Part shown: positions 6,389 to 12,169 of the stretch, in pieces
Layout of the letters: each line of letters starts with the position of its first letter
Numbering within the stretch: the first letter of the stretch is position 1
Translations under genes and position numbers: made by a program
IMG/VR virus record: IMGVR_UViG_3300042906_000674
Coordinates: 1 to 20,503 of that record
Reading direction: 5' to 3' (one strand)
DNA from: a virus
Length of the DNA: 20,503 nt
Notes under the pieces: generated by a model
Told to the model about the DNA's origin: nothing
The model's input: only the letters and a program-made list of their open reading frames with translations
The model's database searches: none

Positions 6389-7549
6389 TTATCTACCTAC
6401 TTCTTGTAGGTATTTTTCTTTACATTCATCCCATGTCATACCGATTACATCAATATAATATAGGGTTTCATTCTTTAATCTATTTTCATTGTATAGTTTT
6501 GTATATCTACTTACTGCATGTTTTTTCCACCATTGTATCATCTTAGTATCATCTATAAACTTAGGTTTTAAGATTAAATCTTTCACTTCAATTTTACTAC
6601 AAAGATAGTCATTACCATTTTCATACATGCCTGCAAAATATACACCTCTCTTAAATCCGTGATTGTATTTATCCGGCTTAATATCAAACTCTTTGAATAT
6701 TCTTTTTAATACATTTTGTTTAGGGCCAGTTGCAAGCATTGCTTTTGCATACCATATAGGGTCTAACTCTTTTACATAATGATGCATGGGTTCATACACA
6801 CTATCATCGGGCTTGATACTAATCATTCCTTTTGACTCACCTAATGTTTTGAAATTAGGTAGTCCGTTATATTGTGAATGAATACCATACAAAGAGGTTG
6901 TAGTAATTCCTACAAGGACATCGTTATATCTTTTATACCACTCATCTCTAATCACAGGTGAGGTTGCGAGTAGTGAAACTAATTTACCACCTAACATATT
7001 ATATCCCAATGGTTGAACTGAAACGATTGTGGATGCAATTGTAGTATTGTTTAACTTACCATCAACAAACTTATTATCCTTAGTCCAACCTATGTGTTTA
7101 TCTCTAACACCTAAACTTGTGACATCTGAACTTAAATTTATTAGGCCTAATATCTTGCCAGTATTTCTATCTTTGATATATACTTTCAAATTACGACCTA
7201 CACCTGTATCATAACTCATAGTATGAATTAGTTTTCTAATACCAATCCATCTATTAGTTTCATTGTCATTAGCTATTTCAGCATATGGTTCTAATGAATT
7301 GATTTCACTTATCGTTAAATCGTAGTTTGACATATCGGTAGGAAACCATAGTAAATCGTAATAGGAACTCAAACGGGGGAGTTTCTCAAAGTTTGAGAGT
7401 AAATCCCCATTTAGTTCTATCCACTTCTTATATAGGGTTTGTTCCTCAACTGACATAGACGCGATAAAATCCATATTGGATATAAAGTTATCCTTACATC
7501 TTTGTAAATCAAAGGTAGTGTCCTCACTCTCCCAAAACTTATTCCCCAT
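6389..7549 (-). CDS. DUF4338 / DruA-like protein
   Basis: 386 residues from the ATG at 7549; an upstream in-frame ATG at 7579 would add ten residues and a larger overlap, so I prefer the inner start, which overlaps the upstream gene by 11 nt. The central part carries the pattern I know from DUF4338, the family of DruA in the Druantia defence system: LGLINLSSDVTSLGVRDKHI followed by GW, then KLNNTTIASTIVSVQPLGYN, LLATSPVIRDEWYKRYNDVL and TTTSLYGIHSQYNGL with FKTLGESKG. The biochemical activity of the family is not settled as far as I know. It is the last and largest gene of a leftward operon of small orphan genes. In a phage it could act in superinfection exclusion, counter-defence or DNA metabolism. 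The family call is by motif recall only. Confidence 0.65.
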   Translation of the reverse strand: MGNKFWESEDTTFDLQRCKDNFISNMDFIASMSVEEQTLYKKWIELNGDLLSNFEKLPRLSSYYDLLWFPTDMSNYDLTISEINSLEPYAEIANDNETNRWIGIRKLIHTMSYDTGVGRNLKVYIKDRNTGKILGLINLSSDVTSLGVRDKHIGWTKDNKFVDGKLNNTTIASTIVSVQPLGYNMLGGKLVSLLATSPVIRDEWYKRYNDVLVGITTTSLYGIHSQYNGLPNFKTLGESKGMISIKPDDSVYEPMHHYVKELDPIWYAKAMLATGPKQNVLKRIFKEFDIKPDKYNHGFKRGVYFAGMYENGNDYLCSKIEVKDLILKPKFIDDTKMIQWWKKHAVSRYTKLYNENRLKNETLYYIDVIGMTWDECKEKYLQEVGR

Positions 7550-7778
7550 CTTGAATAAATTCAGACATACCAAAATCATTTATACCAGCATCCCATATAT
7601 CTTTTGTATCATGGTCATATAGGTCATCAATCATATCATCTACATTCTTAAACATATCGTTGATATATCCTTTCTTACTTTGTAAGAGTAAATGATATGT
7701 CTCTCTATTGATATACATTTGTAATCTCTCTAATGTCTCTGTAATTTGTTCTAACTTTTGAATTTGTTCTACTGTCAT
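7539..7778 (-). CDS. Small helical protein, 79 aa
   Basis: Starts MTVEQIQKLEQITETLERLQ and ends with an acidic region (DDMIDDLYDHDTKDIWDAG). The first half is an amphipathic, probably coiled-coil helix. The first 17 nt of the gene (ATGACAGTAGAACAAAT) are identical to those of the gene starting at 8008, suggesting a duplicated start module. It overlaps the DruA-like gene by 11 nt, so the two are probably translated together and may work together. The acidic C-terminus could be a protein- or DNA-mimic surface, but this is speculation. The family is not recognised. Confidence 0.7.
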   Translation of the reverse strand: MTVEQIQKLEQITETLERLQMYINRETYHLLLQSKKGYINDMFKNVDDMIDDLYDHDTKDIWDAGINDFGMSEFIQDGE

Positions 7779-8863: not shown

Positions 8864-8889
8864 TAAAAAGGGGAGATATTTCACTCCCC
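8864..8889 (-). terminator. Intrinsic terminator of the gene at 8897-9241
   Basis: Read leftward: stem GGGGAG (8889 to 8884) and CTCCCC (8875 to 8870) with an 8-nt loop, followed by five T (8869 to 8865). It lies directly after the stop at 8897. Its flank (stop codon TAA then TCAAAAC) and stem are almost the same as at 9267-9288. Confidence 0.85.
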
Positions 8890-9260: not shown

Positions 9261-9288
9261 AAAAAAGGGGAAGATTTTTCACTTCCCC
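9261..9288 (-). terminator. Intrinsic terminator of the gene at 9299-9676
   Basis: Read leftward: GGGGAAG (9288 to 9282), 8-nt loop, CTTCCCC (9273 to 9267), then six T (9266 to 9261). It follows the stop at 9299. Similar in stem, loop and flanks to the hairpin at 8870-8889. Confidence 0.88.
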
Positions 9289-9298
9289 TATGTTTTGA

Positions 9299-9676
9299 TT
9301 ATTTCCAATCCGGCTGAATTGAATTACCGATTGTAGTGGTAAAGTCTTTGATTAAAGTTTTAATCACTTTTAACTGAAACTTATCAATTTTTGTAGAACC
9401 AAGATTTGTAATCTTTGTTTCCGAATATGTTACATAACCACCTACTTTTATAATGATATAATCCTCAGTTATCTTAACTGAAAACCATACATCGTCTCCA
9501 CCTGTTGTAGTTTCAAACACCTCAATATTTCCGTTTGGTTTATAACCTAATTCAGGTTTAGTTGATAATTCAAAATAATCCACATATCCTGGTTCTTGAT
9601 ACATTGGAAGTTTTTGTAATTGTTCTTGTGTTAAAAATTTAGATACCAGTTGTTTTTGTGTCTTTGACTTTGTCAT
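9299..9676 (-). CDS. Hypothetical protein, 125 aa, first gene of the leftward region
   Basis: Starts MTKSKTQKQLVSKFLTQEQL and continues with a mixed alpha/beta sequence (PGYVDYFELSTKPELGYKPN, GGDDVWFSVKITEDYIIIKV, GGYVTYSETKITNLGSTKID) and a C-terminal helix (FQLKVIKTLIKDF). Repeated polar strands suggest a beta sandwich or an antirestriction-like small fold, but no family can be named. It is the first leftward gene after the control region, usually the place of the earliest expressed gene. A terminator follows at once, so it may be made in larger amounts than the genes behind it. Confidence 0.72.
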   Translation of the reverse strand: MTKSKTQKQLVSKFLTQEQLQKLPMYQEPGYVDYFELSTKPELGYKPNGNIEVFETTTGGDDVWFSVKITEDYIIIKVGGYVTYSETKITNLGSTKIDKFQLKVIKTLIKDFTTTIGNSIQPDWK

Positions 9677-9806: not shown

Positions 9807-9883
9807 CGACAATTTCCTGAATTTACCTACTACTTTATGAGACGATTTGTCATATTCCCTTAAAATCCCAAAGATTTTTTATT

Positions 9884-10041
9884 GAGTATCAACGAGTTAT
9901 ACATATGTTTTTACCTAATATGTCAGTTTGGGTATAAACGGTTGAAAATCAACGATTTAGCTAAAATATTGATAATCAACGAGTTGCACTAACTAACTGA
10001 TAATCAACGAGTTATGTAACTGATTGATAATCAACCGCTTG
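9884..10041 (+). repeat. Iteron array, five copies of TTGATAATCAACGAGTT
   Basis: The core ATCAAC begins at 9888, 9948, 9975, 10003 and 10030, giving steps of 60, 27, 28 and 27 bp. Copies three and four match almost fully (TGATAATCAACGAGTT); the first, second and fifth diverge by a few bases. Within each good copy TTGAT-A-ATCAA is an 11-bp dyad. The array lies in a gene-free region between divergent operons. Iterons of this kind bind a replication initiator, or serve as a multi-site operator. The spacing near 27-28 bp is too short for CRISPR. Confidence 0.8.
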
Positions 10042-10107: not shown

Positions 10108-10125
10108 AATATTGTCCGAAAGGAT

Positions 10126-10241
10126 GGGGGCTCTGTTAAGGTGGATGATACTCAAATCATATAATCTTATTTCCTTCTTATCACTTCATTTTTTTATGAG
10201 GGGGGTAAGGGGGGTGTAAGATGAACAATATCTAAATCATA
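10126..10241 (+). repeat. G-tracts and an imperfect duplicated segment
   Basis: Runs of G at 10126-10130 (five), 10200-10205 (six) and 10209-10214 (six) stand out in this A/T-rich phage. The first is followed by GATGATACTCAAATCATA (10144-10161). The last is followed by GATGAACAATATC and then TAAATCATA, ending near 10241. The two halves look like an old duplication about 80 bp apart. No gene is seen here. Confidence 0.4.
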
Positions 10242-10265: not shown

Positions 10266-10393
10266 ACTTAATAATTAAATTAAAAATATATTATAAATTA
10301 TTTGGAAATATCAGGAAAAAGTTGTAACTTCTCACAAGTTTAGAAAGCACTGATAAAATAATAAAAAAAGATTAAAGATAAAATAAAAAGAAT

Positions 10394-10402
10394 ATGTTAT
10401 TA
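10394..10402 (+). promoter_or_regulatory. ATGTTATTA box before the small RNA candidate
   Basis: Same core (TGTTATTA) as the boxes before the structural genes. If transcription starts about 5 nt downstream, the RNA would begin at the base of the long hairpin at 10408-10463. The ATG here could also open a 19-codon frame to 10453, which I regard as chance. Confidence 0.45.
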
Positions 10403-10407
10403 AAAAA

Positions 10408-10507
10408 TACAGGATTAAAAAATACTTTATCGCTATTCAGCATTACATTATAAAGTTCCTGTACAACATATATAGGCCAAGGTTTTTTGTCATTCCTTGG
10501 CCTTTTT
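10408..10507 (+). ncRNA. Candidate structured small RNA of about 100 nt
   Basis: TACAGGA (10408-10414) and ACTTTAT (10424-10430) pair with ATAAAGT (10450-10456) and TCCTGTA (10457-10463). This gives 14 pairs interrupted only by a 9-nt one-sided bulge and capped by a 19-nt loop. Shortly after comes a strong rho-independent terminator (10475-10507). A promoter-like box precedes it at 10394. There is no plausible gene between box and terminator. The combination of box, long hairpin and terminator is what a phage regulatory or decoy RNA looks like. The family is unknown to me; the role could be antisense regulation, replication control or sequestration of a host factor. Confidence 0.5.
10475..10507 (+). 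terminator. Strong rightward intrinsic terminator
   Basis: Stem GGCCAAGG (10475-10482) and CCTTGGCC (10495-10502), eight perfect pairs, 12-nt loop, then TTTTT (10503-10507). No gene ends just upstream, so it must end a non-coding transcript or insulate the operon promoter at 10514. Confidence 0.9.
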
Positions 10508-10513
10508 AATGCG

Positions 10514-10543
10514 TTTGACTTTTTAAAATGATATATATGTTTG
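10514..10543 (+). promoter_or_regulatory. Bacteroidota-type promoter of the rightward operon
   Basis: TTTG at 10514-10517 and TATGTTTG at 10536-10543 (a match to TAnnTTTG) with 18 nt between them, close to the known -33/-7 layout of Bacteroidota primary-sigma promoters. Transcription would start near 10550, before the ATG at 10595 and after the alternative TTG at 10541, which rules out that TTG as the main start. Confidence 0.65.
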
Positions 10544-10594
10544 GTAATATCAGAAATTATTAGTATATTACATTATAACAAAAACATAAATAAA

Positions 10595-11098
10595 ATGACA
10601 AACTTAAAACAACACCCAGTATTTACGGATTACGCATCGGACAAAGATGGTAACATTTATTCTCTTAAATTCAATAAGGTAAAAGAAATCAGTAGAGTTA
10701 ATCATACAAGAGGATATCAGCAATTTTGTATACATAATGGTTTTCCTAAAATGTATTTAGTACATCGTTTTGTATATGAATGCCATAACGGAATTATTAA
10801 AGATGGATTACAATGCCATCACATAGACCATGAGTATTATATGGTGCTGCAAATCCAAAACATCCACAATATAGAAATTAAAAATATGAAAAAAACAATT
10901 AAATGCATAGGATGCTTCATTAGATTAGGAAGTATTTTAGAACACATTATAGGACTTGTAACATTAGGTTGGGGTAAACATACTGCCAGTTGGGTTGCAA
11001 GAAAATTAGGATACTCTAATTGCGGTTGTGATAGACGCAGAGTATATCTTAATCAATTGACGTGTAAAAGTTATTCAGAAACAATTAGTATATTATAA
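10595..11098 (+). CDS. HNH endonuclease N-terminal part fused to a small phage protein (chimeric frame)
   Basis: 167 residues from the ATG at 10595, which fits the promoter at 10514-10543. Residues 1-80 look like an HNH homing-endonuclease front half: FTDYASDKDGNIYSLKFNKV, VHRFVYECHNGIIKDGLQCH and HIDH. The usual N and last H/N of the motif are not convincingly present. From Met98 (ATG 10886) the frame reads as a separate small phage protein, MKKTIKCIGCFIRLGSILEH ... LGYSNCGCDRRRVYLNQL, whose 'CGCDkRr..LN' ending I recall from other Bacteroidota phages. Another frame between them (10834-10881) encodes VLYGAANPKHPQYRN then stop, like the tail of a lost gene. I read this as a broken endonuclease joined in frame to a resident gene. 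Translation may also start at 10886. Confidence 0.55.
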   Translation: MTNLKQHPVFTDYASDKDGNIYSLKFNKVKEISRVNHTRGYQQFCIHNGFPKMYLVHRFVYECHNGIIKDGLQCHHIDHEYYMVLQIQNIHNIEIKNMKKTIKCIGCFIRLGSILEHIIGLVTLGWGKHTASWVARKLGYSNCGCDRRRVYLNQLTCKSYSETISIL

Positions 11099-11397: not shown

Positions 11398-11609
11398 TGA
11401 ATGAATTAAATCCAGAACAACTATTAGAACTTAAAAATGAATTAAGTCAAATAGGTGGTTATCTTCCAGAAAACAAAGCACCTTATATTTGGGATACATT
11501 CAATCACATTAGAGGTGAGAATGAAATGAGACCTTGCACCTGTGCATCCGCAGGAGGACATTGGAAAAGAGCGGTTGACTTTTTACATGATTACGCAAAG
11601 AATAGATAA
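11397..11609 (+). CDS. Small CxC-motif phage protein, 70 aa
   Basis: Contains GGYLPENKAPYIWDTFNHIR followed by PCTCASAGGHWKRAVDFLHD (Cys47 and Cys49). I recognise this as a small protein family common in Bacteroidota phages near the terminase genes, with the pattern 'GGyip.....yiW......g...kPC.C.saG..W..Av..l'. Its function is not known to me. The CxC pair could bind metal as a dimer. It is joined to its neighbours by TAATG overlaps on both sides, so it is in the middle of a tightly coupled operon. Confidence 0.8.
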   Translation: MNELNPEQLLELKNELSQIGGYLPENKAPYIWDTFNHIRGENEMRPCTCASAGGHWKRAVDFLHDYAKNR

Positions 11610-12169
11610 TGATTGATTCAGGTAGTATTCAACATAGTGAATGTGAAAGAAGATTAGTCGGACTTTATAATGAGTCAAACAATTGGTTGATATCAGCAGC
11701 AAAAAAGATTACAAAGAATAGAGAGGAAGCAGAAGACTTAGTACAAGAACTTTACATTTACTTACATGAGAAGTGTAATGTTAAATTGTTTTGGGGTGAC
11801 AACACTTACAATCTATTCTATTGTAATAAGTTTTTGCATAGTAGATTTATGAACAAAACTAAAAAATTGAATCGTGTTAAACTAATGGGTGACTATACCG
11901 CATGGGAAGAACAAGATGAAATTATTTATGATGAAGAAAGAGATTTACAGATACAAAGAACACATGACCAAGTATTACATGAATTAAAACAATTAGAGAA
12001 AACAAAGATGTGGCCTCAATCAAAGATATTCCAATTGTATTGGATGAGTGATGATACTTTGGACGAGGTTGCAAAGAAAATTAAAATTAGTAAGAGTACA
12101 ACATTCCTTGCAGTTAAGAAGATAAGAAAATATTTAGAACAAGTTATAGATAATCCATTTGATGTTTAA
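11609..12169 (+). CDS. Sigma-70-like (ECF-type) RNA polymerase sigma factor
   Basis: 186 residues, close to ECF sigma size. Region 2-like: SNNWLISAAKKITKNREEAE with DLVQELYIYLHEK (about 27-58), then the hydrophobic, basic stretch to KTKK. Region 4-like: KIFQLYWMSDDTLDEVAKKI, then KISKSTTFLAVKKIRKYL, a helix-turn-helix of the '-tl.eIA..l..s..tv...l.ra...L' kind (about 145-180). The 'EAEDLVQE' core is the best single match. Phage sigma factors redirect host RNA polymerase to later phage genes. It sits in an operon with a host-type promoter, and TGTTATTA boxes before later gene blocks are candidate targets (inference). It could alternatively be a non-sigma HTH regulator such as a terminase-linked transcription factor. 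Confidence 0.72.
   Translation: MIDSGSIQHSECERRLVGLYNESNNWLISAAKKITKNREEAEDLVQELYIYLHEKCNVKLFWGDNTYNLFYCNKFLHSRFMNKTKKLNRVKLMGDYTAWEEQDEIIYDEERDLQIQRTHDQVLHELKQLEKTKMWPQSKIFQLYWMSDDTLDEVAKKIKISKSTTFLAVKKIRKYLEQVIDNPFDV

Follow-up and report, generated by a model that had tools for sequence, protein, structure and literature searches.

The window, that is, the whole stretch of DNA analysed (20,503 bp), corresponds to the virus record in full and encodes a tailed phage with a terminase, a maturation protease, and a tape measure protein. The terminase was nearest to those of Flavobacterium phages (37% identity) and a capsid-region protein to its counterparts in Nonlabens phages. Genes from ~6.4 to 9.7 kb lie on the minus strand and those beyond 10.5 kb on the plus strand, with the RNA element studied here located between both blocks. 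Among the leftward genes, the one at 6389–7579 (minus strand) strongly resembled DruA (Pfam PF14236, E = 4.9e-24), a protein elsewhere associated with the Druantia defence system, and two alike terminator-like hairpins were found at 8870–8889 and 9266–9289 (loops TGAAATAT and TGAAAAAT), which could be read as terminators on either strand. Closer to the RNA element, positions 9880–10035 contain four to five iteron-like repeats (TTGATAATCAACGAGTT), akin to repeats (CTCATTGATAATCAAC) of contigs L051 and L157, and a G-rich conserved stretch at 10112–10220 (GGATGGGGGCTC ... ATGAGGGGGGTAAGGGGGGTGTAAG), also present in L006, is a possible origin feature. On the other side, the plus-strand gene that follows the RNA (10595–11098) encodes an HNH_3-type endonuclease, which compared with L024 and L061 carries a 76-nt internal deletion and a frameshift that fuse it to a small downstream gene and leave only the first half of HNH_3. 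Further to the right, a gene at 11609–12169 encodes a sigma-70 region 2-like protein with a helix-turn-helix, which could be a phage sigma factor for promoters of the TTTG-N20-TAnnTT type; such promoters are over-represented in the window (29 vs 12.7 expected).

The RNA element is encoded on the plus strand. Its first recognizable part is a TGTTATTA box (10395–10402), whose TGTT core is near-invariant in the alignments at 11–14 nt 5' of the first helix. This helix, P2, pairs 10408–10414 with 10457–10463, and the next one, P3, pairs 10424–10430 with 10450–10456, together making 14 Watson–Crick pairs in the window. A conserved one-sided bulge of 9 nt (10415–10423, consensus TTAANNAAT in the family alignments) separates both helices, and an apical loop (10431–10449) lies between the P3 strands. 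Downstream, sequence and folding revealed a terminator hairpin at 10475–10502 with a stem of 8 bp (10475–10482 with 10495–10502), which displays a 12-nt seed loop, TTTTTTGTCATT (10483–10494), and is followed by a T5 tract (10503–10507). The preliminary description had already listed the 14 pairs, the 9-nt bulge, the 8-bp terminator hairpin, its T5, and the box, and all of them were found where it had placed them. The 119-nt RNA folded with −26.8 kcal/mol (z = −3.87), a value equalled by none of 200 shuffled sequences, and the seed had a predicted mean unpaired probability of 0.93 in the window and of 0.87 over the family.

Regarding transcription, a candidate Bacteroidetes-type promoter for the RNA, TTTG-N20-TAACTT, was recognized by sequence pattern at 10301–10330 (plus strand), and 36 of 54 members carry a TTTG-N18-21-TAnnTT motif 5' of the RNA, compared with 6.6% of random windows. 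If this promoter is used, the RNA may be longer, of ~170 nt. In one clade, the −7 promoter element precedes the TGTT box by 12 nt, and in another TGTT abuts TAnnTTTG. A promoter element and the RNA 5' end are both candidates for its role; as the spacing between promoter motif and TGTT varies between clades, the 5' end of the RNA is uncertain. A second promoter candidate, TTTG-N20-TATATT (10540–10569, plus strand), is located 3' of the terminator, is conserved in relatives, and might provide separate drive for the target gene.

A search with the terminase identified 80 related contigs, and the RNA region could be aligned in 11 terminase-related contigs, with identities from 97% down to ~72%, whereas more diverged clades share its plan. 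These clades were recovered without prior input by a covariance model built from 8 close relatives, and alignments from this model were used in place of an earlier MAFFT structural alignment, which was out of register between clades. Among 31 distinct relatives, 98.3% of the helix cells were paired, and changes on both sides were detected in 12 of the 14 base pairs (7/7 in P2 and 5/7 in P3), and the covariation score was 0.737; shuffles scored 0.218, and sliding the partners gave no more than 0.154. A conserved structured RNA at this site is therefore confirmed. Both the covariation analysis in related phages and the covariance-model search had been suggested in the preliminary description, which named relatives keeping the position but losing the pairing as the outcome against it; the results favour the structure instead, and the conserved, covarying family supports its proposal of a distinct phage non-coding RNA of probably ~100 nt with its own terminator.

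With pattern and model searches, the family grew to over 50 loci in viral contigs, and the RNA was present in 15 of the 16 terminase-related contigs with more than 6 kb upstream, being absent from L065 alone. Around 16 weak model hits (E from 0.05 to 0.9) among the pattern loci were left out of the membership, and the two that were inspected (L175 and L194) had no seed hairpin. The Rfam search gave no family at the gathering threshold and, at E up to 10, just two chance-level hits, neither of them c4; the element returned no hit in a tRNA/tmRNA search. No match to the RNA was found in isolated phages, and the 10 pattern hits in bacterial genomes were not members under model R3 (best E = 0.13). 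In addition, the terminase was not found when genome contigs were searched for prophages or hosts.

From 5' to 3', the family plan consists of TGTT, P2 (~7 bp), a bulge of 9–10 nt, P3 (~7 bp, starting with ACT/AGT), the apical loop, and the P2 exit. The seed hairpin comes after this exit and in most members it is the terminator; in five of them (L101, L107, L115, L119, and L145), a seed hairpin is followed by a distinct terminator, so the functions of loop and terminator are separable. Terminator stems diverge freely among relatives whereas the seed of the loop is conserved. This adds to the preliminary description a point that it did not contain, namely that the 12-nt terminator loop itself appears to be the conserved functional part.

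The genes adjacent to the RNA encode mostly HNH_3 (Pfam) proteins or zinc-ribbon proteins with GIY-YIG similarity, the latter corresponding to homing-endonuclease families in PHROGs, with no hit in Pfam. Thus, one site holds two unrelated types of usually free-standing nucleases, with sizes from 120 to 197 amino acids. A family of small proteins of 60–70 amino acids (MKWIKLGDYAEALIHVITFGFG / MCIIKLGNIVSGIIEILTLGWG) is often encoded 3' of the endonuclease (L032:2361, L024:4689, L100 on the minus strand, and others).

The loop sequences were then compared with the start of these genes. In the window, the seed 5'-UUUGUCAUU (10486–10494) is complementary over 9 bp to the following gene around its start codon, AAUGACAAA (10594–10602, plus strand), so that the predicted target site, AATGACAAA, extends across the start codon. 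Elsewhere, the seed is mostly GUGCCAU plus flanks, and the loops of the family retain GUCAU or GCCAU, the complements of AUGAC or AUGGC, with the partner, flanks included, found at the start of the next gene. The length complementary to the nearby start-codon region ranges from 6 to 12 nt across the family. For 45 unique loop/start pairs, the mean contiguous match was of 7.5 nt vs 5.95 ± 0.20 after re-pairing, with none of 50,000 permutations reaching it, and re-pairing inside seed classes gave likewise 0/50,000, the number of independent events being smaller than that of pairs because the contigs are related. The 15 GCCAT loops followed by an ATGGC start matched in 32 of 45 positions within the 3 nt beside the seed, compared with 21.2 ± 2.6 in permutations (14/50,000). 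Matches of at least 7 nt were found in 16 of 24 family members vs none of 10 control terminators located before genes in the same contigs, the control loops being somewhat shorter (mean 9.7 vs 13.8 nt). The mean match was 7.7 nt at adjacent starts, 70% of which reached at least 7 nt, and 4.8 nt at the remaining starts of these contigs, of which 9% did. Only the seed loop gave a clear signal of this kind; the 5' segment, the bulge, and the apical loop showed nothing comparable, and as candidate seeds the last two gave weak (568/20,000) or no signal.

Individual members illustrate how closely loop and gene go together. The core RNAs of L030/L032 and L099 are nearly identical, but their loops are different and each fits its own gene (TGCCATCGGTT/AACCGATGGCA in L032, TTTTGTCATT/AATGACAAAA in L099), and contigs L146, L102, and L100 contain one HNH gene with three start contexts and three matching loops. 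L079 presented a 12-nt loop/start match, and L053 matched through AGTGCCATCTT. Substitutions in the seed are mirrored in the target, as in L122 (TCCATTT/AAATGGA), where GCCAU has changed to UCCAU and AUGGC to AUGGA, and in L041 (TTGCTATT/AATAGCAA), where GUCAU has changed to GCUAU with AAUAGCAA directly 5' of the AUG. The divergent member L054 was recovered only with filters off, after the loop/start rule had been fixed, and its atypical loop, TTGTCATACT, forms 10 bp, one of them G–U, with AGTATGATAA at the endonuclease start. Other members fit less well: L103, L061, L006, L084, L074, and L130 showed weak matches of ~5–6 nt to the adjacent gene, the best matches of L145 and L115 were to other genes, and L179 had no clear target. 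The match in the window is itself modest: it consists of 9 pairs rich in A/U (−8.5 kcal/mol), takes third place within the contig, and is equalled by that of the left-operon gene starting at 9676. As a conserved second target, this gene was unsupported, its 90% relative (L062-like) starting with ATGTCAAAG. A second seed in the TGTTATTA box acting on the target leader, as in c4, was suggestive with 32 pairs, but with 45 it was not significant (1263/20,000), and AACA is missing from several target leaders, which counts against this pairing.

No endonuclease adjoins the RNA in clade 4 and comparable contigs, where the endonuclease start is found kilobases off on the opposite strand. This distant start matches the loop over 7–10 nt in 8 of 12 contigs (10 nt in L118, 9 nt in L143, 8 nt in L150), the flanks of the start differ between L143 and L118 in step with the loops, and the combined probability is about 0.001, an indicative value given that the contigs are related. 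Such an arrangement favours action in trans.

On the basis of these sequence patterns, we propose, with a probability of about 0.7, that the element is a phage antisense RNA with its own promoter and terminator that blocks translation initiation of a homing endonuclease by pairing in trans. The antisense role was one of those considered in the preliminary description, and the complementarity of the loop to endonuclease start codons makes it plausible. The RNA would be transcribed from its own promoter and end at its own terminator, and its exposed loop would pair with the start codon of an endonuclease mRNA made separately, from the promoter 3' of the terminator. Covering of the AUG and its A-rich context would then block initiation, because flavobacterial mRNAs have no Shine–Dalgarno sequences and rely on a start region that is A-rich and unstructured (PMC6847099), and a potentially harmful nuclease would be kept scarce or delayed. 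P2 and P3 form a conserved domain that may stabilize the RNA or bind a protein. Most likely, then, the RNA holds the translation of the neighbouring endonuclease gene in check, repression and not activation being assumed. In the window genome, since this match is modest and the endonuclease gene looks broken, the RNA could be a remnant or have another gene as its target.

Other explanations account for part of these data. Most members have RNA and target side by side and equally oriented, ~110 nt apart, as would also be expected from a cis-acting leader, in which read-through transcripts fold the hairpin onto the endonuclease start and only transcripts from an internal promoter are translated, as in T4 I-TevI, where the hairpins are formed on early transcripts only (PMC2988022). 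We consider this unlikely, as a terminator and a conserved promoter lie between RNA and target, the best endonuclease start of clade 4 shows its 7–10 nt of complementarity from the other strand, and fold-back does not need a conserved P2/P3 domain. A general antisense RNA directed against many phage (or host) genes starting with AUGGCA or AUGACA, the endonuclease being one among them, is somewhat easier to conceive, because replication-type genes fit equally or better, in place of the endonuclease, in L145 (9 nt) and L118 (10 nt, two genes) and because the window loop also fits the gene at 9676. It is nevertheless doubtful, given that the flanks of the loop follow specifically the adjacent gene, that other starts match so much less than adjacent ones, and that ATGTCAAAG begins the L062-like relative of the gene on the left.

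The replication control suggested in the preliminary description, with the RNA acting on the adjoining iterons, agrees with the repeats at 9880–10035 and with those near the RNA in L051 and L157. However, the RNA is kept directly 3' of a coding gene, iterons not alongside, in L024, L041, L010, and others, the loop follows endonuclease starts, and a non-systematic look noticed no RNA–iteron complementarity, so we regard this role as very improbable. No evidence was found for the sponge and host-defence roles also raised there. Hardly more credible is the view that base composition and common descent produce the match between loops and starts: starts are A-rich, many of them ATGGCA, and the contigs are related, but the permutations preserve composition and classes, control terminators and other RNA segments have no match, seed substitutions are mirrored in the targets (L122, L041, L079, L032), and L054 was fitted blind.

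The family could represent a widespread RNA system of Bacteroidetes phages dedicated to taming homing endonucleases, with a fixed scaffold and an exchangeable anti-start-codon loop re-tuned for each new unrelated nuclease, for which we put the chances at about even. It would be a programmable start-codon silencer suited to Shine–Dalgarno-free translation, showing antisense regulation where ribosomes do not use such sequences. What is known of how phages coexist with selfish homing endonucleases comes mostly from the T4-like group, in which mRNA hairpins delay translation, and a separate RNA whose loop co-evolves with the start codon of the endonuclease would add a second solution, acting in trans. 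The covariation of seed and target provides ready-made compensatory mutants, and a fixed scaffold with a free loop might serve as a gene-silencing tool for flavobacteria.

The c4 RNA, which Citron and Schuster are said to have described in 1990, is reportedly a small, structured RNA of phages, encoded just 5' of its target and in the same orientation; through short loops that are complementary to the region of translation start, it represses the downstream gene in trans. In temperate phages, it acts on the antirepressor (ant) operon. By analogy, c4 would be the closest functional precedent, although it is unrelated in sequence: c4 (RF01695) and the RNA described here share a loop complementary to the translation start of the downstream gene, here one loop only, the second site having been rejected, with no sequence or covariance-model match between them. 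Here, in addition, the targets are HNH_3 or GIY-YIG-like endonucleases of Bacteroidetes-type phages, not the ant operon, and a single seed in the loop of a terminator-type hairpin lies directly on the AUG. Seeds in terminator loops are known from bacterial small RNAs such as Helicobacter RepG, which likewise expose them in the hairpin loop; the RNA studied here differs in being phage-encoded and in its hypervariable seed, which follows one neighbouring gene. A type I toxin–antitoxin RNA was rejected, as the targets are nucleases of 120–197 amino acids and not a short hydrophobic toxin. The c4 antisense RNA of P1/P7 (Citron and Schuster 1990) is cited in PMC12197685 and PMC2864571.

A search of the literature outside subscription papers for phage RNAs that affect homing endonucleases returned only CfrI and in-mRNA hairpins. 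CfrI of cyanophage S-PM2 is a psbA-linked antisense transcript from the region between psbA and an endonuclease gene (PMC12197685), thus also a phage antisense RNA beside a homing endonuclease gene, whereas the RNA described here is not antisense to a gene and would pair via a short loop. In T4-like phages, in-mRNA hairpins restrict homing endonucleases translationally, with possible toxicity discussed as the reason (PMC2988022). Repression at the RNA level, predicted here, is thus shared with I-TevI, segB, and Aeh1 mobE; in those cases, the hairpin of the mRNA hides the ribosome-binding site, whereas here a separate RNA with a terminator would pair with the start codon. Finally, the family resembles the class of trans-acting antisense small RNAs in its accessible seed with conserved target complementarity; its terminator and, in the 36 of 54 members given above, a candidate promoter motif may make it an independent transcription unit.
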